Below, piece after piece: positions 8,521 to 62,485 of a stretch of DNA of 64,000 bases. Origin of the DNA: Cordylochernes scorpioides (taxonomy: Eukaryota; Arthropoda; Arachnida; Pseudoscorpiones; Chernetidae); assembly GCA_030710605.1 (NCBI GenBank), contig CP092872.1:5258019-5322018 (forward strand). The letters run 5' to 3'. The notes under the pieces are model-generated. The model saw only the letters and a list, made by a program, of their open reading frames with translations, was not told where the DNA came from and searched no databases. Within the stretch, counting starts at the first letter, position 1; each line of letters starts with the position of its first letter. A program made the position numbers and the translations under genes.

Positions 8521-8527
8521 ATAAATA

Positions 8528-9198
8528 TACTAATAGACAAAACCTAAGGAATTTGTACCTTTTAGCATGTATATTGGCATTCAGACAATAACTCTGTAAT
8601 ATATTACAGTGACCTTTATTGAAGACACACGAGATAACCAATATACACTCATAGACAAAACTTAAGGAAGTTGTACCTTTTAGCATGTATATCGGTATTC
8701 AGACAATAACTCTGAAAGATATTACAGTGACCTTTATTGAAGACACACGAGATAACCAATATACACTCATAGACAAAACTTAAGAAAGTTGTACCTTTTA
8801 GCATGTATATCGGTATTCAGACAATAACTCTGAAATATATTATAGTGACCTTTATTGAAGATACACGGGATAACCAATATACACTCATAGACAAAACTTA
8901 AGGAAGTTGTACCTTTTAGCATGTATATCGGTATTCAGACAATAACTCTGAAAGATATTACAGTGACCTTTATTGAAGACACACGAGATAACCAATATAC
9001 ACTCATAGACAAAACTTAAGAAAGTTGTACCTTTTAGCATGTATATTGGTATTTAGGACAATAACTCTGAAAGATATTACAGTGACCTTTATTGAAAATA
9101 AAACAAGATAACCAAGTGTGTGAACAACCTCTGTCTCCTTCGAAAAAAAAAATCAGACAATCGGCTTTCCGCCTTCATAGGTTTTGTCCATGAGTGTA
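8528..9198 (+). mobile_element. Family H MITE with 118-bp tandem repeats
   Basis: About five units of roughly 118 bp. Each starts like the transposon end (ACACTCATAGACAAAACTTA) and runs through GCATGTATATCGGTATTCAG and GATATTACAGTGACCTTTAT. The block closes with the inverted end AGGTTTTGTCCATGAGTGTA, so it sits between terminal inverted repeats. No transposase is present. Open frames across the array are by-products of the repeat. Confidence 0.75.
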
Positions 9199-9803: not shown

Positions 9804-10147
9804 CTTGTTAATAGAGACGTATATGCTTTGTGGAACATCAAAATAAGATCAAATTAACTTTTTAAGTAAATTTTTAAAGAAAGGTGTAGGAACAGGGCTA
9901 ATTATAGATTGTAAAAGTGTTGGGTTTTACTTGATAACTGACATGGCGGTTCTTCTATAGCGTTAATTGTGAAAGATTAAATTAATTATATCTTCTGGTT
10001 GATTTATGTGGACTTTTTCTTCCTTCTGCGCATGCGTTGTTTGTTATACTTCTTTAATTTCAAATATTATTTGTTCACAATTTTAATGAAATGATGAAAG
10101 AATGAAGCTGGTAGCCTCCTTACTCAAATTTCTCCAACGATGTAATA
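9804..10147. other. No gene seen
   Basis: AT-rich single-copy-looking sequence between a SINE and the second 118-bp array. I see no motif. Confidence 0.5.
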
Positions 10148-10773
10148 TACACTCATGGACAAAACTTAAGGAAGTTGTACTTTTTAGCATGTATATCGGG
10201 ATTCAGACAATAACTCTATGAAAGATATTACAGTGAACTTTATTGAAGACACACGAGATAACCAATATACACTCATGGACAAACCTTAAGGAAGTTGTAC
10301 CTTTTAGCATGTATATCGGGATTCAGACAAGAACTCTATGAAAGATATTACAGTGAACTTTATTGAAGACACACGAGATAACCAATATACACTCATGGAC
10401 AAAACTTAAGGAAGTTGTACCTTTTAACATGTATATCGGGATTCAGACAATAACTCTGTGAAAGATATTACAGTGAACTTTATTAAAGACACACGAGATA
10501 ACCAATATACACTCATGGACAAAACTTAAGGAAGTTATACCTTTCAGCATGTATATCGGGATTGAGACAATACCTCTGAAAGATATAACAGTGACCTCTA
10601 TTGAAGACACACGAGATAACCAATATACACTCATGGACAAAACTTAAGGAAGTTGTACCTTTTAGCATGTATATCGGGATTCAGATAATAACTCTGTGAA
10701 ATATATTACAGTGAACTTCATTAAAGATACACATCAAAGACTTCCACTTCCTTGAGTTTTGTCCATGAGTGTA
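10148..10773 (+). mobile_element. Family H MITE with 118-bp tandem repeats, intact ends
   Basis: Left end TACACTCATGGACAAAACTT, right end inverted (AGTTTTGTCCATGAGTGTA). The inverted repeat runs about 29 bp with one mismatch. A TA dinucleotide flanks each side (10146-10147, 10774-10775), the target duplication of Tc1/mariner elements. Five units of 118-120 bp lie inside, each beginning with a full left end. The non-repeat right part is about 40-60 bp. This is the clearest copy of the family's structure. Confidence 0.85.
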
Positions 10774-11589: not shown

Positions 11590-11983
11590 CTAAAATTATA
11601 ATAATTATTGGATGAAAGGGCTTGGCTCATCAGTGGTAAACCATCTAAGCGGTTTCGTTAAATTAATCTCTAGACCACTCTACTGTTGTATTGGATTGAT
11701 TTTCTTATATATCCTGTATTTACTAAGGAAGAGCTTAGAGGTATTTAAGGAACCTATGGACAAATGCTTATAGGTCTGTAGAGGTACATATATATAATTA
11801 CAAGTAATTGCATCGAGCAATGCTCTTCTTTAAATATTATTTCATTTTAAAGCCATTATTAGGTAATAACAAATATAATTTCAATTGACCATTATCGTTA
11901 AAATTCGTAAGATTATTTTGTCAATTTATTTATTGTGATATTTATTATTATATATTACCTCTACAGACCTTACTGCAATAATA
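11590..11983 (-). mobile_element. Family A long-form element
   Basis: Contains GGGCTTGGCTCATCAGTGGT, AAGCGGTTTCG, TGTATTGGATTGATT, CTATGGACAAATGCTTATAG and ATTGCATCGAGCAATGCTCT, all shared with 57195-57530. On the minus strand the CTGATGAGCCAA and GAAACCGCT pieces of the A-type motif are kept, but stem II no longer pairs. With 12353-12600 it forms a large interrupted inverted repeat. Confidence 0.65.
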
Positions 11984-12352: not shown

Positions 12353-12600
12353 TATAAAATATAAGATGTAAGATTGTATGCGTGTCTACAGACCTATAAG
12401 CTTTTATGTCCATAGGTTCACTAAACACTCTTAAGCTGCCTTTATTATTAAATACAAGGTATATTATAAATTCAATCTAATACAGCAATAAAGCGGTCTG
12501 GAGATTCATTTTGCACACCACTGAGAGAGTTCACCACTGATGAACCAAGCCCTTTCATCTAATAATTTTCATAATATCAGTTAGGTCTATGTGTAGAGAT
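12353..12600 (+). mobile_element. Family A long-form element, opposite arm
   Basis: Reverse of the family A long form: CTACAGACCTATAAGC, CAATCTAATACAG, AAGCGGTCTGGAGATT, GTTCACCACTGATGAACC. The stem III strand and cleavage C are kept (AGCGGTC at 12492). The GAAA strand is lost (GCACACCACT). Confidence 0.6.
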
Positions 12601-12686: not shown

Positions 12687-13555
12687 TACACTCATGGACA
12701 AAAATAAAGATGTGTAAAGTGTTTGATATCGCCGTCGTTTGTTCTTTTTGAAGGAGAAGGCAAAATGTTGTTCAAACATTAGGTATATTGTTTATCCTCA
12801 ATAAAGGTCACTGTAATATCTTTCAGAGTTATTGTCTAAATACCGATATAATGCTAAAAGATACAACTTCCTGAAGTTTTGTCCATGAGTGTATATTGGT
12901 TATCTCGTGTATCTTCAATAAAGGTCATTGTAATATCTTTCATAGTTATTGTCTGAATCCCGGTATACATGCTAAAAGATACAACTTCCTTTAGTTTTGT
13001 CCATGAGTGTATATTGGTTATCTCGTGTGTCTTCAATAAAGGCCACTGTAATATCTTTCAAAGTTATTGTCTGAATCCCGATATACATGGTAAAAGGTAC
13101 AACTTCCTTAAGTTTTGTCCATGAGTGTATATTGGTAATCTCGTGTGTCTTCAATAAAGGTCACTGTAATATCTTTCAGAGTTATTGTCTGAATCCCGAT
13201 ATATACATAGTGAAAGGTACAACTTCCTTAAGTTTTGTCCATGAGTGTATATTGGTAATCTCGTGTGTCTTCAATAAAGGTCACTGTAATATCTTTCAGA
13301 GTTATTGTCTGAATCCCGATATATACATAGTGAAAGGTACAACTTCCTTAAGTTTTGTCCATGAGTGTATATTGGTAATCTCGTGTGTCTTCAATAGAGG
13401 TCACTGTGATATCTTAGGTTTTGTACATGAGTGTATATTGGTCATCTCGTTTGTCTTCAATAAAGGTCACTGTACTATCTTTCAGAGTTATTGTCTGAAT
13501 CCCGATATATACATAGTGAAAGGTACAACTTCCTTAAGTTTTGTCTATGAGTGTA
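12687..13555 (-). mobile_element. Family H MITE, 118-bp array in reverse
   Basis: Left end TACACTCATGGACAAAAATA, a unique stretch to about 12800, then roughly six reversed units (ATAAAGGTCACTGTAATATC, GTTTTGTCCATGAGTGTATA), ending at GAGTGTA. Some neighbouring units are nearly identical. The 157-residue open frame at 13087-13560 is three copies of the same unit read through and is not a protein gene. Confidence 0.75.
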
Positions 13556-17605: not shown

Positions 17606-17851
17606 ATGTGAGTAACTCAGGCGAAACCAAGTAATGCATTTTGTTGGAAGAAAATAAAAAGGTATAAATAAAAAATTCCTTATGAATACAACACTAAATA
17701 TGCGTGAGATGCAAAATTTGATATTCATTTGACCTGTTCATCTGGTTCCCGAAAAAAATTATATTCAAATCGAATATGGCAACCTCTATTTTCAAGATAA
17801 AAAAAATGGTGTCAAAATAGAATCCATAATATATTCACTTATCCTGATAAA
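17606..17851. repeat. Spacer of the duplicated block, copy 2
   Basis: Partner of 15683-15926. Differences are scattered substitutions and short poly-A length changes. Confidence 0.85.
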
Positions 17852-18875
17852 TACACTCATAGACAAAACACAAGGAAGTTATACCTTTTAGCATGTATAT
17901 CAGGATTCAGACAATAACTCTGAAAGATATTACAGTGACCTTTATTGAAGACACACGAGATAACCAATATACACTCAGGGACAAAACTTAAGGAAGTTGT
18001 ACCTTTTAACATGTATATCAGGATTCAGACAATAACTCTGAAAGATATTACAGCGACCTTTATTGAAGACACACGAGATAAACAATATGCACTCATGGAC
18101 AAAACTTAAGGTAGTTGTACCTTTTAACATGTATATCGGGACAATAACTCTGAAAGATATTACAGTGACCTTTATTGAAGACACACGAGATAACCAATAT
18201 ACACTCATGGACAAAACTTAAGGAAGTTGTACCTTTTAACATGTATATCGGGACAATAACTCTGAAAGATATTACAGTGACCTTTATTGAAGACACACGA
18301 GATAACCAATATACACTCATGGACAAAACTTAAGGAAGTTGTACCTTTTAACATGTATATCGGGAATCAGACAATAACTCTGAAAGATATTACAGTGACC
18401 TTTATTGAAGACACACGAGATAACCAATATACACTCATGGACAAAACTTAAGGAAGTTGTACCTTTTAGCATGTATATCTGGATTGAGACAATAACTCTG
18501 AAAGATATTACAGTGACCTTTTTTGAAGACACACGAAATAACCAATATACACTCATGGACAATACTTAAGGAAGTTGTACCTTTTAGCATGTATATCTGG
18601 ATTGAGACAATAACTCTGAAAGATATTACAGTGACCTTTATTGAAGACACACGAGATAACCAATATACACTCATGGACAAAACTTAAGGAAGTTGAACCT
18701 TTATCGGGATTCAGACAAAAACTCTGAAAGATATTACAGTAACCTTTATTGAAGACACTCGAGATAACTAAGTATGAACAGGTTTATCTCTGTCTCTCCT
18801 TCAAAAACAAAACAAAAACAAATTAAAGAGACTACATCAAAGAATTTCCACTTACTTAAATTTTGTCCATTAGTA
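17852..18875 (+). mobile_element. Family H MITE, eight-unit 118-bp array
   Basis: Starts TACACTCATAGACAAAACA and ends in the decayed inverted end AAATTTTGTCCATTAGTA. Units differ mainly by a 4-6-bp deletion (TATATCGGGACAATAAC) shared by neighbouring units. Confidence 0.8.
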
Positions 18876-27110: not shown

Positions 27111-27439
27111 AAAATTCGAAACTATTTTAGACGCGAATGATTCTTTTTGATATTAAACAATTTCTACTGCCCTTACTGCAATGAAAAATTAATTGAAGGG
27201 CCTGGCTCATCAGTGGTGAATCCTCCCAGTGGTTTCGCCAGTTTAATCTACCATACCGCTGTTATATTACATTTTTGGAACTTCCTTTTATAGTGATACT
27301 GTTGGTAGACTCTTGGAATGGGTATTATTATAATTTTTCATTGCAGTAAGGGCAGTAAAAATTGTTTATTTTCAAAAAGAATCTCACGCGTCTAAATAGT
27401 TTCGAATTTTCATAACAGATGGCGCGCTAGTGCATCATG
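27111..27439. mobile_element. Family A foldback with 12-bp target duplication
   Basis: Flanked by ATTGAATAGATG (27099-27110) and ATTAAATAGATG (27440-27451), 11 of 12 identical. The left arm begins AAAATTCGAAACTATTTTAG and is mirrored at the right; only the right side carries the tail CATAACAGATGGCGCGCTAG. The A core is complete, with the permuted hammerhead at 27202-27260 on the minus strand. No coding sequence. Confidence 0.85.
27202..27260 (-). ncRNA. Permuted hammerhead motif, family A
   Basis: On the minus strand: AGCGGT-A-TGGTAG, ATTAAA, CTGGC-GAA-ACCACT, then CACCA-CTGATGA-GCCAG. Stem II is CTGGC/GCCAG, whereas the 57 kb copies have TTGGC/GCCAA, so one T:A pair is a C:G pair here and pairing is kept. 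Stem I keeps four pairs and stem III has one mismatch. The cleavage nucleotide would be A. Confidence 0.6.
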
Positions 27440-32345: not shown

Positions 32346-33020
32346 ACTGTGTGCCTAGAAAGATTCCAACCTCTCCAATGAAGGTATAATGTCTGTGAAA
32401 AAAGGAACATCAATAAAAATCATAAAGAACAAAGAATAATGTTTTGACATGAAGAACAAAGGATGATCTTTAATTTTTAAATAACCTTTTGTATTTAGAT
32501 ATATAATCTTTTGCATTTAATCATTTCTTACTTTTATAATGTTGTGTTATGTATATAAGCCAATAAATATATTTTATATCGAAATGCTCCAACTCTTCAA
32601 TTCATAATTAACAACATCCAACTGGCCGAACTGTATATTTTTCATATAAATAACTTAATTTTATTGAAATATTGTCATAACATGCAAAAGTGAACAGTCT
32701 GTACTATTATTTTAAAAAAGATAATTAGATACATATAAATATATACGGCGCCTCTGCAACCGCTGCAGAGTTTGGTGGAGAATCACCAGCGACATCCATT
32801 TATATTATTATTATGTTTCAAAAAATGTTTAATAGAAATATAATTAGTAATAATACATTTTATTATTATTTTCTACTTTTATAATCTTTATATAAACATG
32901 TGTAATTAGAATTATATAATATAAGGAAATATATTTACTTTTCTAAGTTTTGGTTGCATTCACCTTGTAAGGAAGTTCTTTTCTATTATTATTAACAATA
33001 ACATCAACAATAAAGCGAAA

Positions 33021-33348
33021 TACACTCATAGAAAAACCTTAAGGAAGTTGTACCTTTTAATATGTATATCGGGATTCAGACAATAACTCTGAAAGATATC
33101 ACAGTGACCTTTATTGAAGACACACGAAATAACCAATATACACTCATGGACAATATTTAAGGAAGTTGTACCTTTCAGGATGTATATCGGGATTGAGACA
33201 ATAACTCTGAAAGATATTACAGTGACCTTTATTGAAGACATACGATATAACCAAATGTGAACAAAATTGTCTCTATCTCTCCTAAAAAAAAAAAAAAACA
33301 GACCACATCAAAGACTTTCCATTACCTTAAGTTTTGTCCATGAGTGTA
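33021..33348 (+). mobile_element. Family H MITE, two-unit copy
   Basis: TACACTCATAGAAAAACC at the left and GTTTTGTCCATGAGTGTA at the right, with two 118-bp units and the non-repeat right part (ACCACATCAAAGACTTTCC). The shortest array of this family in the window. Confidence 0.8.
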
Positions 33349-37661: not shown

Positions 37662-38233
37662 CGACTAAATTAAACTCTTCGAATTAAAAAAGCAAAATAT
37701 AACAATGATTGAAGAGGAGTGTCTTATACGGACTTTCTTAGCAAACTTTCGGATGGTGTGGTCATTGTAAAGCCTGTAGAAGGCCTGTAGACTAGCCTGT
37801 AAAGCCTGTAGAAGGCCTGTAGACTAGCCTGTAAAGCCTGTAAAAGGCCTGTAGACTAGCCTGTAACGCCTGTAGAAGGCCTGTAGACTAGCCTGTAAAG
37901 CCTGTAGAAGGCCTGTAGACTAGCCTGTAAAGCCTGTAGAAGGCCTGTAGACTAGCCTGTAAAGCCTGTAGAAGGCCTGTAGACTAGCCTGTAAAGCCTG
38001 TAGAAGGCCTGTAGACTAGCCTGTAAAGCCTGTAGAAGGCCTGTAGACTAGCCTGTAAAGCCTGTAGAAGGCCTGTAGACTAGCCTGTAAAGCCTGTAGA
38101 AGGCCTGTAGACTAGCCTGTAAAGCCTGTAGAAGGCCTGTAGACTAGCCTGTAAAGCCTGTAGAAGGACGTCCGAAAGCTTGCTAATAAAGTTCGAATAA
38201 GACACTCCTCTTCAATTGTCGTTATATTTTGCT
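37662..38233. mobile_element. Foldback with internal 32-bp minisatellite
   Basis: Inserted in the LINE with a 13-bp duplication ATTATCAACTAAT (37649-37661, 38234-38246). Left arm AGCAAAATATAAC, TTGAAGAGGAGTGTCTTATA, TAGCAAACTTTCGGATG; the right arm is its mirror. The left side alone has a 25-30-bp extension (CGACTAAATTAAACTCTTCG...). Between the arms are about 12 units of 32 bp. Confidence 0.85.
37769..38167. repeat. 32-bp minisatellite
   Basis: Unit AGCCTGTAAAGCCTGTAGAA-GGCCTGTAGACT. Each unit is itself built of four GCCTGTA-like 8-mers. Only two or three single-base variants are seen, so expansion is recent. There are no unique spacers, which excludes a CRISPR array. Confidence 0.95.
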
Positions 38234-40637: not shown

Positions 40638-40898
40638 ATATAATATATCGGTATATAGGAACAACCTTATATGAAAGTATCAATTCAAATAGAAAATCAG
40701 TTTTAATGTTTAAGGTTTATTGGAAGGACTTGGTTTATCTGTGAACCATTCCAGCAGTTCGACCTATTTAATCTACCAGACAACACTATTGGATTTGACT
40801 GCTTTACTTATATATAGCTTATGTTGTTTTTTTAATTGATAAATTAAGTTTTAGGTTAATTATTGAAATATGCTTTTTGTGAGGGTGTTTGTATATAT

Positions 40899-44745: not shown

Positions 44746-45745
44746 ATCCCAGTACAATATCACATTTGTACTATTTTTTCACAGAATCTTTAATTTATGC
44801 ACCTTATCCCAGTACAATATCACATTTGTACTATTTTTTCACAGAATCTTTAATTTATGCACCTTATCCCAGTACAATATCACATTTGTACTATTTTTTC
44901 ACAAAATCTTTAATTTATGCACCTTATCCCAGTACAATATCACATTTGTACTATTTTTTCACAAAATCTTTAATTTATGCACCTTATCCCAGTACAATAT
45001 CACATTTGTACTATTTTTTCACAAAATCTTTAATTTATACACCTTATCCCAGTACAATATCACATTTGTACTATTTTTTCACAAAATCTTTAATTTATGC
45101 ACCTTATCCCAGTACAATATCACATTTGTACAATTTTTCACAGAATGTTTAATTAATGCACCTTATCCCAGTACAATATCACATTTGTACAATTTTTTCA
45201 CAAAATCTTTAATTTATGCACCTTATCCCAGTACAATATCACATTTGTACTATTTTTTCACAAAATCTTTAATTTATGCACCTTATCCCAGTACAATATC
45301 ACATTTGTACTATTTTTTCACAAAATCTTTAATTTATGCACCTTATCCCAGTACAATATCACATTTGTACTATTTTTTCACAAAATCTTTAATTTATGCA
45401 CCTTATCCCAGTACAATATCACATTTGTACTATTTTTTCACAAAATCTTTAATTTATGCACCTTATCCCAGTACAATATCACATTTGTACAATTTTTCAC
45501 AGAATGTTTAATTTATGCACCTTATCCCAGTACAATATCACATTTGTACTATTTTTTCACAAAATCTTTAATTTATGCACCTTATCCCAGTACAATATCA
45601 CAATCGTACTATTTTTTCACAGAATCTTTAATTTATGCACCTTATCCCAGTACAATATCACATTTGTACTATTTTTTTCACGGAATCTTTAATTAATGCA
45701 CCTTATCCCAGTGCAATATCACATTTGTACTATTTTTTTTTTCAC
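44746..45745. repeat. 60-bp minisatellite from family B, right part
   Basis: About 16 units. The middle ones carry CACAAAATC instead of CACAGAATC, a variant shared by neighbours and absent from the left part. The 259-residue open frame (44732-45511) is repeat read-through. Confidence 0.9.
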
Positions 45746-46699: not shown

Positions 46700-46943
46700 C
46701 AGATGGCTGACTTAAACCTCTAATACTGTATTGGATCATTCTGATTATATATCTTACACTGAAAGGTGGAATCTTAGAAATGGTATTTAAGAGAGCTATG
46801 GACATAAGCTCTTAGGACAGTAGAATTACATATAATATTCGCATCGAGCATTGGTTCCGCAAACAATAAGGACAAGGCCATTTAGGCATAAATGAATATA
46901 AATCAATAACTACTAGCAATAAAGCTTAATTGTTGACGTTGTT
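46700..46943 (-). mobile_element. Family A long-form tail
   Basis: CTCTAATACTGTATTGGATC, CTATGGACATAAGCTCTTAG, GCATCGAGCATTGG, AACAATAAGGACAAGGCC, matching 57340-57520. Confidence 0.6.
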
Positions 46944-46956
46944 TAAATAAATCCAT

Positions 46957-47232
46957 CAAAATTCGAAACTATTTTAAAGACGTAAGATTCTTTTTGAAAT
47001 TAAACATTTTCTACTGCCCTTACTGCAATGGAAAAATTAATGGGAGGGCCTGGCTCATCAGTGGTGAACCCTCCCAGCGATTTCGCCAGTTTAATCTACC
47101 ACTGATGAGCCAGGCCCTCCCATTAATTGTTCCATTGCAGTAAGGGCAGTAGAAATTGTTTAATTTCAAAGAGAATCTTACGCCTTTAAAATAGTTTCGA
47201 ATTTTGATAACAGATGGCGCGCTAGTGCATTA
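46957..47232. mobile_element. Family A foldback with 13-bp target duplication
   Basis: Flanked by TAAATAAATCCAT (46944-46956, 47233-47245), exact. Arms CAAAATTCGAAACTATTTTA...CCATTGCAGTAAGGGCAG; the one-sided tail ATAACAGATGGCGCGCTAGT is at the right. The core is a near-perfect palindrome in which CTGATGAGCCAGGCCCTCCC occurs on both strands, so the stem III/cleavage strand is lost. A second-step inversion product. Confidence 0.85.
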
Positions 47233-47600: not shown

Positions 47601-49594
47601 GGTCCATTGTACGTATTACATCCCAAACACGATGAGACACCATCCAACTCTGTCTTGAACTCGATGTGTGACCCATTGTATGTATCACTTCCCAAACACG
47701 ATAAGACACCATCCATCTCTGTCTTGAACTCGATGTGTGACCCATTGTATGTATTACATCCCAAACACGATGAGACACCATCCAACTCTGTCTTGAACTC
47801 GATGTGTGACCCATTGTACGTATTACATCCCAAACACGATGAGACACCATCCAACTCTGTCTTGAACTCGATGTGTGACCCATTGTATGTATCACTTCCC
47901 AAACACGATAAGACACCAGCCATCTCTGTCTTGAACTCGATGTGTGACCCATTGTACGTATTACATCCAAACACGATGAGACACCATCCAACTCTGTCTT
48001 GAACTCGTTGTGTGACCCATTGTATGTATCACATCCCAAACACGATAAGACACCAGCCATCTCTGTCTTGAACTCGATGTGTGACCCATTGTATGTATTA
48101 CATCCCAAACACGATGAGACACCATCCAACTCTGTCTTGAACTCGATGTGTGACCCATTGTACGTATTACATCCCAAACACGATGAGACACCATCCAACT
48201 CTGTCTTGAACTCGATGTGTGACCCATTGTACGTATTACATCCAAACACAATGAGACACCATCCATCTCTGTCTTGAGCTCGATGTGTGACCCTTGTACG
48301 TATTACATCCCAAACACGATTAGACACCATCCATCTCTGTCTTGAACTCGATGTGTGGTCCATTGTATGTATTAAATCCCAAACACGATGAGACACCATC
48401 CATCTCTGTCTTGAACTCGATGTGTGACCCTTGTACGTATTACATCCCAAACACGATGAGACACCATCCATCTCTGTCTTGAGCGCGATGTGTGGTCCAT
48501 TGTATGTATTACATTCCAAACACCATGAGACACCATCCATCTCTGTCTTGAACTCGATGTGTGGTCCATTGTATGTATTACATTCCAAACACGATGAAAC
48601 ACCATCCATCTCTGTCTTGAACTCGATGTGTGGTCCATTGTATGTATTACATCCAAACACGATGAGACACCATCCATCTCTGTCTTGAACTCGATGTGTG
48701 ACCCATTGTATGTATTACATCCCAAACATGATGAGACACCAGCCATCTCTGTCTTGAACTTGATGTGTCGTCCATTGTATGTATTACATCCCAAACACGA
48801 TGAGACACCAGCCATCTCTGTCTTGAACTCGATGTGTGACCCATTGTATGTATTACATCCCAAACACGATGAGACACCATCCATCTCTATCTTGAACTCG
48901 ATGTGTGACCCATTGTATGTGTTACATCCCAAACACGATGAGACACCAGCCATCTCTGTCTTGAACTCGATGTGTGACCCATTGTATGTATTACATCCCA
49001 AACACGATGAGACACCATCCATCTCTATCTTGAACTCGATGTGTGACCCATTGTATGTGTTACATCCCAAACACGATGAGACACCAGCCATCTCTGTCTT
49101 GAACTCGATGTGTGACCCATTGTATGTATTACATCCCAAACACGATGAGACACCATCCATCTCTATCTTGAACTCGATGTGTGACCCATTGTATGTGTTA
49201 CATCCCAAACACGATGAGACACCAGCCATCTCTGTCTTGAACTCGATGTGTGACCCATTGTATGTATTACATCCCAAACACGATGAGACACCATCCATCT
49301 CTATCTTGAACTCGATGTGTGGCCCATTGTATGTGTTACATCCCAAACACGATGAGACACCAGCCATCTCTGTCTTGAACTCGATGTGTGACCCATTGTA
49401 TGTATTACATCCCAAACACGATGAGACACCATCCATCTCTATCTTGAACTCGATGTGTGGCCCATTGTATGTGTTACATCCCAAACACGATGAGACACCA
49501 GCCATCTCTGTCTTGAACTCGATGTGTGACCCATTGTACGTATTACATCCAAACACGATGAGACACCATCCAACTCTGTCTTGAGCTCGATGTA
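47601..49594. repeat. 69-bp minisatellite inside the mariner
   Basis: Unit TGTATTACATCCCAAACACG-ATGAGACACCATCCATCTCT-GTCTTGAACTCGATGTGTGA-CCCATTGTA, about 29 copies. From about 48840 to 49500 two variants alternate (CTCTATC/GTGTT and CTCTGTC/GTATT), giving a 138-bp higher-order unit. The period is 23 codons, so frames of up to 408 residues stay open. I do not call them genes. Confidence 0.95.
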
Positions 49595-53686: not shown

Positions 53687-53718
53687 ATCCTTACTGCGAT
53701 GAAAAATATTGGGAAGGC

Positions 53719-53777
53719 TTGGCTCATCAGAGATGAACCCTACCAGCAGTTTCGCCGATTTAATTTACCAGACCGCT
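53719..53777 (-). ncRNA. Permuted hammerhead motif, family A (decayed)
   Basis: On the minus strand: AGCGGT-C-TGGTAA, ATTAAA, TCGGC-GAA-ACTGCT, then CATCT-CTGATGA-GCCAA. Stem III keeps all six pairs with one G:U. Stem II keeps three inner pairs. Stem I is weak. Confidence 0.5.
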
Positions 53778-53914: not shown

Positions 53915-54085
53915 AAAATAAAGAAGGCATATCCTGACCAAAAGCACATGTGCTTTTTAGATTGAAGAGCGCCATCTAGTGGAACAGAAATCAACTAAAC
54001 ATTGATTTAGCCTGTTCCCTGATATTTGGCTAACCCAATTTCTTGATAAATCAAGAAAAGCCATCCACGATTCATCGAGCAATGC
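53915..54085 (-). mobile_element. Family F element, truncated
   Basis: AAGGCATATCCTGACCAAAA, GAAGAGCGCCATCTAGTGG, CAATTTCTTGATAAATCAAG. It stops at CCACGATT before the ribozyme. Confidence 0.6.
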
Positions 54086-56793: not shown

Positions 56794-56950
56794 CTAGGCT
56801 GCGGCCATTGCTGGGCATGAAAATATGTGGGTAGGTGTTAGTTACATACTAGGACAGTTGTTGCATGTCCAATAGGTTCTTGTGCTATCTGGATGTATTG
56901 TCATTCCTTTATAGTGTTTCGTTCTGAGTCTTGTTATTGTTTTTTAATTC
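56703..56950 (-). pseudogene. LINE ORF2 C-terminus
   Basis: The minus strand reads TRLRTKHYKGMTIHPDST, CNNCPSM, stop, LTPTHIFSCPAMAAA, stop, QKIDRDPEQQLYTPK, IENTAVIEMYGDI, stop. RTxHxKGM...CxxCPxxxLTPxHIFxCPA is a known C-terminal zinc-binding pattern of arthropod LINE proteins, frequent in spiders. Two in-frame stops make it dead. Confidence 0.8.
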
Positions 56951-57194
56951 TTTGTGTTAAGATTAGTTTTTATAATAGAGCTAGGGTTGATGCTGCCCTT
57001 TCAACGTTAAGGAATGCATTAAACAGGAGCGAATAATGGTATAATCTGTATTCAAACTGTTTCATTCGACGAGAATGATCAAGCCCGATTTTTGAATTAT
57101 AGATTAAAATTACAAGGTTAATAAGACAAAATCTAAATAAATAGTGTTTGACGTGTGTTTCGGTAACAGTGTTGTTACCTATAAATTGAAAGGA

Positions 57195-57530
57195 TTTAAA
57201 AGCACGAATGTTTCTTTTATACATAATACAGACTTCTACTGCCCTTACTGCGATGAAAAAATATATTGGGAGGGCTTGGCTCATCAGTGGTGAACCCTCC
57301 CAGCGGTTTCGCCAATTTAAACCACCAAACCGCTTCTCAGAGCTCTAATACTGTATTGGACGATTCTGCTTATATACACAGCACTGAAGGATGGAATCTC
57401 AGAAATGGTTTTCAAGAAAACTATGGACATAAGTTTATAGGACAGTAGAATTACATTCAAATATTTGCATCGAGCAATGCTCTTCCGCAAACAATAAAGA
57501 CAAGGTCAGTTAGGCATAAATTAACACAAA
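57195..57530 (-). mobile_element. Family A long form
   Basis: Left arm TTGAAAGGATTTAAAAGCAC, CTACTGCCCTTACTGCGATG; core with hammerhead; then CTGTATTGGACGATTCTGC, CTATGGACATAAG, GCATCGAGCAATGCTC. It appears to be the uninverted form from which foldbacks such as 57531-57846 derive. Confidence 0.7.
57276..57334 (-). ncRNA. Permuted hammerhead motif, family A
   Basis: On the minus strand: AGCGGT-T-TGGTGG, TTTAAA, TTGGC-GAA-ACCGCT, GGGAGGG, TT, CACCA-CTGATGA-GCCAA. All three stems pair fully and the cleavage base is U. Confidence 0.65.
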
Positions 57531-57846
57531 GCAATAGCGCGCCATCTATACATATAAATTGAAAGGATTTAAAAGCACGAATGTTTCTTTTATACATAAT
57601 ACAAACTTCTACTGCCCTTACTGCGATGAAAAAATTATATTGGGAGGGCTATATTAGAGCTCTGAGAAGCGGTCTGGTGGATTAAATTGGCGAAACCGCT
57701 GGGAGGGTTCACCACTGATGAGCCAAGCCCTCCCAATATAATTTTTTCATCGCAGTAAGGGCAGTAGAAGTTTGTATTATGTATAAAAGAAACATTCGTG
57801 CTTTTAAATCCTTCAATTTATATGTATAGATGGCGCGTTATTGCTT
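57531..57846. mobile_element. Family A foldback with both tails
   Basis: GCAATAGCGCGCCATCTATA at the left is mirrored at the right (TATAGATGGCGCGTTATTGC). Unlike 27111 and 46957, the GATGGCGC tail is present on both sides. The core with the best hammerhead copy is at 57668-57734. Confidence 0.8.
57668..57734 (+). ncRNA. Permuted hammerhead motif, family A, best copy
   Basis: Stem III strand AGCGGT (57668-57673), cleavage base C57674, stem I strand TGGTG (57675-57679), linker, stem II strand TTGGC (57687-57691), GAA (57692-57694), stem III strand ACCGCT (57695-57700), GGGAGGG (57701-57707), stem I strand CACCA (57710-57714), CTGATGA (57715-57721), stem II strand GCCAA (57722-57726), G, CCCTCCC (57728-57734). 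All 16 stem pairs are Watson-Crick and every hammerhead core residue is present. The strand order differs from types I, II and III. Confidence 0.7.
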
Positions 57847-57859
57847 AGTGTTGTTACCG

Positions 57860-57985
57860 TAATGTCATACACTATTATTCCATTGCAGTAAGGGCAGTAG
57901 AAATTGTTTAATTTTAAAAATAATCATACGTGTCTATAATAGTTTCGAATTTTGACAACAGATGGCGCGCTAATGCATCACACAA
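57860..57985 (-). mobile_element. Family A half-element
   Basis: CCATTGCAGTAAGGGCAG, AATAATCATACGTGTC, AATAGTTTCGAATTTTGACA, ACAGATGGCGCGCTAATGCA. Confidence 0.7.
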
Positions 57986-58386
57986 TTTATTTATTTATTT
58001 GGTCTTATTACCTTGTAGTATTTGAAGAGAAGATTTCTGATGAAACTTCTATAAAATAAAACACCGACTCAGAGCGAAATGTTCTACCAATCTAAAAAGA
58101 TCTATGACAGAAGTTAAATAACTCTGAGTGTGTTGAACATATTGCAGCCTTTGTGTATTTAGGCTCAGACAAGGATGGAAGAAAATGTCACCAAGTATAG
58201 CCTATTGAGCTACAGCGACCTTATCTCGACACCGAACCCTCTGATCACACCATAAATCAAGCGGTTTCTATCGTAGTGATTCGGAAATCAGTTTCCTTGT
58301 TTCTTTGTTGGTCCTCTGAAATATTCCTTTCTTGATGTTTCTCTGTGTAACGAGGATTTTTCTTTTTGACCTGTGCGCTGTTTAGT
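57986..58386. other. No gene seen
   Basis: Mixed composition without recognisable frames. Confidence 0.45.
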
Positions 58387-58511
58387 GAATCTACAGAGTG
58401 TAGAACGAAGTTTGACAATTATACCGCAAATGTTTCTTTTGAACGAAAAATCGAAATTTATTTTAAGGAGAAATAACGATTATTTCTAATCTTAGGGATG
58501 AAGTATAAAAT

Positions 58512-62396: not shown

Positions 62397-62485
62397 TAAA
62401 GAATAATTCGACAAAACCGCTGAGAGGGTTCACCACTGATGAGCCAAGCCCTTTCATCTAATACTTTCTATCATTACAATAAGAG
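62397..62485 (+). mobile_element. Family A fragment
   Basis: TTCGACAAAACCGCTGAGAG, GGTTCACCACTGATGAGCCA, AGCCCTTTCATC. The outer helix is GAGAGGG/CCCTTTC instead of GGGAGGG/CCCTCCC; pairing is kept. The stem III/cleavage strand is missing. Confidence 0.6.

Follow-up and report, generated by a model that had tools for sequence, protein, structure and literature searches.

A 67-nt sequence at positions 57668–57734 of a 64,000-nt stretch of DNA from Cordylochernes scorpioides, an arachnid of the order Pseudoscorpiones (hereafter the window), is interpreted, from its sequence, as a DNA-encoded type SGC hammerhead ribozyme in an animal, which is new as far as searched. We consider it likely that this ribozyme constitutes the self-processing part of a retrozyme-like retroelement, with the fold and cycle proposed below. 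The reading builds on the strand order, the core and four compatible helices, on compensatory changes between copies, on a tandem unit of 374 nt, on copies that start at U1.1 (the first base after the predicted cleavage bond) or within 1–4 nt of it, and on a motif shared with repeats of this genome that carry type I hammerheads. This fold is a rare kind that was already known; what appears to be new, within the literature searched, is that it occurs in animal DNA and inside a retroelement, where it may have left traces of its own cleavage.

Strand order, core and predicted fold

The sequence at 57668–57734 (AGCGGT-C-TGGTG, GATTAAA, TTGGC-GAA-ACCGCT, GGGAGGG, TT, CACCA-CTGATGA-GCCAA, G, CCCTCCC) contained a complete hammerhead core, namely CUGANGA, GAAA, the A15.1–U16.1 pair and an H17 other than G (C). 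The strands followed the order cleavage site, GAAA, CUGAUGA (S-G-C), which is the reverse of the cyclic order of types I–III. Stems I, II and III comprised 16 Watson–Crick pairs, were compatible with each other and spanned 57668–57726. Core, stems, pairs and order had been described in an earlier note on this DNA, and were confirmed on the sequence and by a descriptor scan. The parts of the ribozyme, with the evidence for each in brackets, are:

57668–57674, +: block S, 5′ part, the stem III 3′ strand AGCGGT and H17 (C 57674) (sequence, descriptor scan)
between 57674 and 57675, +: predicted cleavage bond (hammerhead core)
57675–57679, +: block S, 3′ part, the stem I 5′ strand TGGTG, with U1.1 (57675) as its first base (sequence, descriptor scan)
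57680–57686, +: linker GATTAAA, 7 nt, from the stem I strand to the stem II strand (sequence, copy alignment)
57687–57700, +: block G, the stem II 3′ strand TTGGC, GAAA and the stem III 5′ strand ACCGCT (sequence, descriptor scan)
57692–57694, +: GAA (sequence)
57701–57707, +: fourth helix (joining stems I and II), 5′ strand GGGAGGG (sequence, predicted fold, compensatory changes)
57710–57726, +: block C, the stem I 3′ strand CACCA, CTGATGA and the stem II 5′ strand GCCAA (sequence, descriptor scan)
57715–57721, +: CTGATGA (sequence)
57728–57734, +: fourth helix, 3′ strand CCCTCCC (sequence, predicted fold, compensatory changes)
57668–57673 / 57695–57700, +: stem III, 6 bp (AGCGGT/ACCGCT)
57675–57679 / 57710–57714, +: stem I, 5 bp (TGGTG/CACCA)
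57687–57691 / 57722–57726, +: stem II, 5 bp (TTGGC/GCCAA)
57701–57707 / 57728–57734, +: fourth helix, 7 bp (GGGAGGG/CCCTCCC)

Together, the four helices comprised 23 pairs on 46 separate bases, all inside the 67 nt and with no base used twice, and in the proposed fold no helix competes with another. When the 67 nt were folded for minimum energy, with a program that cannot draw pseudoknots, the prediction included one hairpin for stem III and another for GGGAGGG/CCCTCCC. The strands of stems I and II fell in the two hairpin loops of this fold, where few and weak local pairs were predicted. The whole molecule is proposed to consist of two adjoining hairpins whose loops are linked by stems I and II, giving a loop–loop pseudoknot with the hammerhead core. 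Whether the three stems could form together had been named as a check, and the modelled helices, sharing no base, appear compatible. Of the pseudoknotted or two-molecule fold envisaged earlier, the non-circular, pseudoknotted order stands, whereas a second molecule is unnecessary, given that four helices fit in one.

Comparison with published type SGC hammerheads

Eckert et al. (2023; PMC10085705) defined the blocks S, G and C and described type SGC as a non-circular permutation with 583 predicted sequences. This description, with cleavage in vitro, overtakes the statement of the earlier note that no hammerhead with this order was known. As presented in that paper, SGC ribozymes cleave in vitro at the predicted bond, during transcription and from single sequences, and cleavage is abolished by changing the G of CUGA. 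For SGC-3, disruption of each of four helices led to loss of cleavage and compensation rescued it; the fourth helix, required for cleavage, connects stems I and II on their other sides.

Compared with the published set by its description (type SGC, HRIMA-1 motif; PMC10085705), the pseudoscorpion ribozyme has in common the S-G-C order, all core residues, stems I–III and the fourth helix. No base separates its stem III from its fourth helix, against a published range of 0–44 (PMC10085705). Its S–G linker measures 7 nt (6 in one subfamily) vs. typically three in the published SGC set, a length that the authors give as typical and not as required (PMC10085705). The sources differ as well: the pseudoscorpion sequence is a dispersed repeat in animal chromosomal DNA, whereas type SGC is known from environmental RNA and, according to its authors, from no known organism's genome (PMC10085705). 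In a literature search of open-licence papers, no subsequent publication placed SGC in a genome, and none dealt with ribozymes in pseudoscorpions.

Occurrence against chance and database searches

The descriptor scan required the full core and at least 4 + 4 + 4 pairs in the stems, in any of the six strand orders and on both strands. Two places were returned for the 64-kb window, both SGC (57668–57734, +, and an inverted copy at 57268–57334, −). Sixty dinucleotide shuffles of the window, scanned on both strands, yielded zero SGC places and seven places in four other orders. Scanning 29 10-kb stretches of the same genome (290 kb) gave three SGC places vs. one in 20 shuffles of those stretches. 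Among 35 viral loci taken from viral_contigs with the loose pattern GGCGAAAC-N12-30-CTGATGAGCC, the scanner called seven places type II (GSC; at least 12 Watson–Crick pairs), which serves as its positive control, and zero places SGC. The same pattern occurred at no fewer than 119 loci of genome_contigs, and at none of those listed were there at least 13 Watson–Crick pairs in any order. The exact family pattern had zero matches in viral_contigs, and a blastn search of plasmids gave no match.

Rfam hammerhead models, which the earlier note had suggested as a check, did not recover the ribozyme. With Rfam 15, the whole window at gathering thresholds returned a tRNA only and no hammerhead; positions 56900–58400 gave no hammerhead at E values up to 10, and seven sampled loci gave none at E values up to 5 among 32 rows, which were chiefly low-score microRNA models on inverted arms. 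Because the Rfam models gave no match to this repeat, other genomes may hide more of its kind. A Pfam search of eight window frames, two of them overlapping repeat copies, returned zero families.

A dispersed repeat family with compensatory changes

The ribozyme at 57668–57734 is one of a number of copies of a repeat in the window:

57652–57852, +: copy a, from TATTAGAG through the ribozyme and tail, with an inverted tail upstream (homology to unit)
57268–57334, −: copy b, a second intact SGC ribozyme, in an arm 97% complementary to that of copy a (inverted pair, descriptor scan)
53711–53777, −: copy c, stem I decayed, with a nested type I insertion in its promoter-like part (alignment)
27194–27260, −: copy d, of the subfamily with stem II CTGGC/GCCAG (alignment)
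11614–11679, −: copy e (alignment)
12492–12556, +: copy f (alignment)
62397–62455, +: copy g, homology starting at U1.1 within about 3 nt, without fold-back (upstream homology)
46711–47101, −: copy h, fold-back junction at U1.1, anywhere in a 4-nt TGGT/ACCA overlap (junction analysis)
353–409, −: copy i, fold-back joined no more than 2 nt from U1.1, with a partner site other than that of copy h (junction analysis)
1031–1090, +: copy j, CTGATGA lost, H17 = G (alignment)
40715–40781, −: copy k, decayed, excluded from the alignments (homology)

Ten window copies were aligned with 16 of the 26 nhmmer profile matches from the 29 ten-kilobase stretches (290 kb) of contigs C1 and C2. Besides copy k, ten matches were left out as tails or as too decayed (L036_1137, L037_2383, L037_2422, L038_9858, L044_121, L044_8726, L044_9196, L050_7553, L057_8952 and L061_3288). 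That the sequence belongs to a conserved repeat family and is not a chance occurrence, as had been claimed, is borne out by these 10 window and 16 sampled copies. Ribozyme-bearing copies occurred about once per 18 kb of the 290-kb sample, a density from which extrapolation to the genome is rough. Five of the 26 copies passed the 4/4/4 scan, 2/10 in the window, where the rest were decayed or cut, and 3/16 in the sample; most copies were decayed. There were at least three variants, one with stem II TTGGC/GCCAA, one with stem II CTGGC/GCCAG and one with a fourth helix of GAGAGGG/CCCTCTC or similar. The S–G linker was 6–7 nt long across the aligned copies. Among the 19 copies with a whole stem III 3′ strand, as read from the alignment rows, H17 was G in copy j alone and C, T or A in the other 18.

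The four-helix structure fitted the 26 copies; stem II and the fourth helix showed compensatory changes, for which the signal elsewhere was weak. Cells of the alignment were paired in 85.7% of cases, vs. 35.7–52.5% for six slid versions of the structure; by helix, the values were 91.3% (III), 73.6% (I), 90.6% (II) and 86.0% (fourth). Changes on both sides were found in 21 cells vs. 10.3 ± 2.6 after shuffling (reached in 0/500 shuffles), and the covariation score over the 26 copies was 0.146 vs. 0.117 ± 0.008 (0/500), both against shuffles that ignore relatedness. Pairs with two-sided change were about as numerous as in the shuffles (7 vs. 6.1; 196/500), and further pair types (19) were fewer than the shuffled 20.7 (473/500). 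Independent compensatory events were few among the 26 copies. For covariation in the three stems, a check proposed in the earlier note, the picture was mixed: stem II changed clearly at one pair (UA in 15 copies, CG in 9), whereas the change in stem I came mainly from one locus (GC in 16 copies, AU in 2, the AU pairs from that locus) and stem III had a single cell with two-sided change. In the fourth helix, three pairs showed two-sided change, mainly one of them (GC in 16 copies, AU in 6). The outermost (fifth) pair of stem I was unpaired in 20 of 24 copies.

Mean identity between variants was 0.79–0.84 in the ribozyme vs. 0.72–0.76 in the flanks, with a shuffled background of 0.61–0.63, so that the ribozyme was somewhat better kept. 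At two loci (L037 2576–2857 and L056 4499–4756), two SGC ribozymes stood back to back as a near-perfect palindrome with a short centre.

Repeat unit and tandem layout

The tandem unit measured 374 nt (spacing 373–374) with a GC content of 37.7%, and its longest stop-to-stop frame had 94 codons. Counted from U1.1, it comprised the ribozyme, a tail with AGATGGCGC, the stretch before the next U1.1, and the S block. A TATA-like run, a candidate promoter, lay 36–50 nt before U1.1 in 11 of the 26 copies used for the analysis of copy ends below. A tandem arrangement was recognised in the window from repeat spacing and unit matching:

57268–57650, −: the end of a unit, followed by a tail containing GATGGCGCGC, a promoter-like stretch containing TATATAAG and ribozyme b

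Copies longer than one unit were found at L052 1806–2359 (554 nt) and at 57176–57650 of the window (475 nt), and L044 128–489 began at unit position 193 and ended at position 187 of the next round. Ends at unit positions 171–187 were frequent among the copies.

Metazoan (non-LTR) retrozymes have been described as low-GC units of a few hundred base pairs that occur in tandem copies, with one type I hammerhead each (Cervera and de la Pena, 2020; PMC7229834). Judged by that description, the SGC repeat resembles them in being short, low in GC and tandem, with one hammerhead per unit and no long frame; it differs in that its ribozyme is SGC and not type I and in that it was seen only as partial dimers (PMC7229834). 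As one part of the overall explanation judged likely above, the SGC repeat would be a retroelement of the retrozyme-like kind, short, without coding capacity and abundant in the genome of the pseudoscorpion.

Copy ends at the predicted cleavage site

The ends were analysed in 26 copies, i.e., the aligned set plus copy k and L057_8952, minus L050_9831 and L052_2359 (S block deleted, or start inside the ribozyme), by measuring how far homology to promoter-bearing copies extended upstream from U1.1. Four copies (g, h, i and L038_1416) had no homology upstream of U1.1 beyond one chance base. The other 22 kept at least 7 nt, including L050_6644 and L061_2568, which were near background (7 and 8 nt, with scores of 5 and 4). 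L052_2359 (unit position 12) and L061_3288 started inside the ribozyme and not at U1.1.

Eight of the 26 copies were fold-back loci, of which three joined at U1.1 and five at −25, −55, −73, −75 and −78. The partner sites of the three U1.1 joins differed, being the stem I strand in copy h, the stem III strand in copy i and the tail in L038_1416. The junctions were resolved to 1 nt in L038_1416, 2 nt in copy i, about 3 nt in copy g and 4 nt in copy h, the last being ambiguous because stem I itself supplies the overlap. In a plain alignment, the join of copy i lay 2 nt inside U1.1, and it lay exactly at U1.1 only given a 3-nt deletion. By our own arithmetic, the chance of three of eight joins falling in the foretold 4-nt stretch is near 0.007, about 1 in 100, assuming an even spread over about 80 positions and three independent events. 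Copy h matched most of the 374-nt unit, from position 1 to about 366, with a weak match over its final bases, and may be close to a monomer cut at both ends. We read the loss of homology at U1.1 in four of 26 copies, with moderate confidence, as the ends of cDNA that reached the 5′ end of the 3′ cleavage product of a self-cleaved RNA.

Type I hammerheads in the same genome

Type I hammerheads in the canonical C-G-S order were found in the 290-kb sample in three or so families, with a self-complementary stem III (ACGCGT, ACCATGGT). Repeats of this type in the window and in one sampled locus include:

window 55245 (+), 46629 (−), 31945 (−) and 45854 (+): type I repeats of the CACCACGCTGATGAGGGCCAACAGCC-GAAACGCGTCCGTGG kind, intact to decayed, several (e.g., 55245) with AGATGGCGC about 120 nt downstream
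window 58727 (+) and 2379 (−), L046 1048 (+) and 687 (−): another family of type I, CCCTAGACTGACGAGGGCCATTAGCCC-GAAACCATGGTC, which lies in long inverted arms and has a palindromic stem III

With at most one mismatch, AGATGGCGC lay 115–123 nt downstream of CTGANGA in 13 of 19 type I places, and 112–120 nt downstream of CTGATGA in 5 of 15 SGC places, with a sixth at 80; it was absent within 400 nt at the other nine SGC places. For comparison, it was found 80–140 nt downstream of 9 of 2000 random places. A nested insertion in copy c (window 54069–53920, −) began within 3 nt of a type I cleavage site (54069), and a sister sequence without that insertion was present at 57530–57420 (−). Cleavage-site starts had also been considered for the type I copies L052 1670 and L062 5361, where they are weakened because the bases upstream could be decayed ribozyme; the nested insertion at 54069 is the sole clear case. 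The type I repeats are thus like the SGC repeat in the distance of AGATGGCGC and in at least one insertion that starts within 3 nt of the cleavage site, whereas beyond the core and AGATGGCGC there is no convincing similarity between them. The idea that block C of SGC (CACCA..CTGATGA..GCCA..) was derived from that of type I was set aside as a lead only, the score having been reached by 2.3% of shuffles in a comparison chosen after looking.

A host protein (P0005), found via a frame in L046, contained RVT_1 and a GIY-YIG match of 22.0 bits, below the cut-off of 22.6, a combination known from Penelope-like elements. Penelope-like elements such as PAc have been described with minimal type I hammerheads in tandem arrangement (PMC11167929). 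The same source reports, for a Penelope-like element of Anolis, that insertion in vitro was independent of hammerhead cleavage and that no RNA reads started at the cut site (PMC11167929). Set beside the elements as described there, the SGC system is similar in having a hammerhead in tandem repeats and a host-encoded RT with a GIY-YIG match; it differs in that the SGC unit carries no RT/GIY-YIG frame (none over 94 codons) and in that its hammerhead is permuted (PMC11167929).

Proposed cycle and alternative explanations

From these observations we infer cleavage, circularisation, use of the promoter and the participation of an enzyme, in the following cycle. A transcript started at the TATA-like promoter, or made from tandem units, would cleave itself at the H17–U1.1 bond. 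Reverse transcription would then use as template either the 3′ product or a 374-nt monomer in linear or circular form. The enzyme would probably be Penelope-like (RT plus GIY-YIG), act in trans and be common to the SGC and type I repeats, and it may recognise its template via the shared AGATGGCGC stretch. A cDNA that reached the cut 5′ end would be inserted, sometimes after folding back on itself.

The strand order within a copy would be irrelevant if the hammerhead formed only between molecules or between tandem units. Across three successive units, block C from the first, G from the second and S from the third would give the type I order, and SGC units do occur in tandem. Penelope-type hammerheads reportedly act as dimers, with which the self-complementary stem III (ACGCGT, ACCATGGT) of the type I hammerheads of this genome is in keeping. 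We nevertheless regard this explanation as improbable: the four helices fit in 67 nt without any base being used twice, the fourth helix with its compensatory changes is specific to SGC, and published single SGC sequences cleave during transcription (PMC10085705). It is still less probable that GGGAGGG/CCCTCCC acts as a competitor or switch regulating the hammerhead, as had been suggested in the earlier note. The outer inverted arm of copy a (57642–57650) could indeed also pair with CCCTCCC, but the inner helix has no bases in common with stems I–III, forms together with stem III in the predicted fold, shows compensatory changes, and is the counterpart of a helix of the published SGC fold, the disruption of which abolished SGC-3 cleavage (PMC10085705).

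Long inverted arms in many copies and the decay of the majority of them would suit a fossil or a misread motif, kept for some other reason (e.g., as hairpins of a foldback DNA element) and only incidentally resembling a ribozyme. A full core with 16–23 pairs, absent from 60 window shuffles, compensatory changes across copies, junctions at the predicted cleavage site, and type I hammerheads in similarly laid-out repeats of the same genome make this very unlikely. More weight, although we still think it unlikely, is due to the explanation that the fold-back junctions at U1.1 arose by DNA-level snap-back at stem I or by chance, in which case the ribozyme may be real and its cut unrecorded in the genome. 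The junction of copy h is the TGGT/ACCA of stem I, which starts at U1.1 by definition, and there are just three such junctions and one plain start, each with 1–4 nt of play. Against this, copy i and L038_1416 join U1.1 to other partners (the stem III strand and the tail), and copy g starts at U1.1 without any fold-back.

We judge a broader reading evenly poised between true and false. A non-circularly permuted, pseudoknotted hammerhead would be the processing ribozyme of an animal retroelement. SGC and type I would have one and the same role in elements with a common 3′ recognition stretch, equally far away in both, so that a single class of mobile element would have exchanged the strand order of its ribozyme and retained the reaction and its position. 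Chromosomes would then record the in vivo cleavage site as cDNA 5′ ends and fold-back points. SGC hammerheads were previously without a known organism. With an abundant family encoded in the DNA of a defined animal host, their expression, circular RNA, enzyme and evolution from type I become open to testing. A genome that has the ribozyme in both strand orders would also let the origin of the non-circular permutation be traced by sequence.

Other repeats and frames in the window

A minisatellite with a period of 118–120 bp (ATACACTCATGGACAAAACTTAAGGAAGTTG...) was present in five places with 2–8 copies each (8525–9115, 10144–10732, 12798–13415, 17851–18768 and 33020–33254). Long tandem arrays were found at 47604–49593 (69-bp units), 44746–45738 (60 bp) and 37766–38167 (32 bp). 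The window also contained a reverse-transcriptase-like frame with four matches to C. scorpioides proteins, one stretch having 96% identity over 26% of the query.
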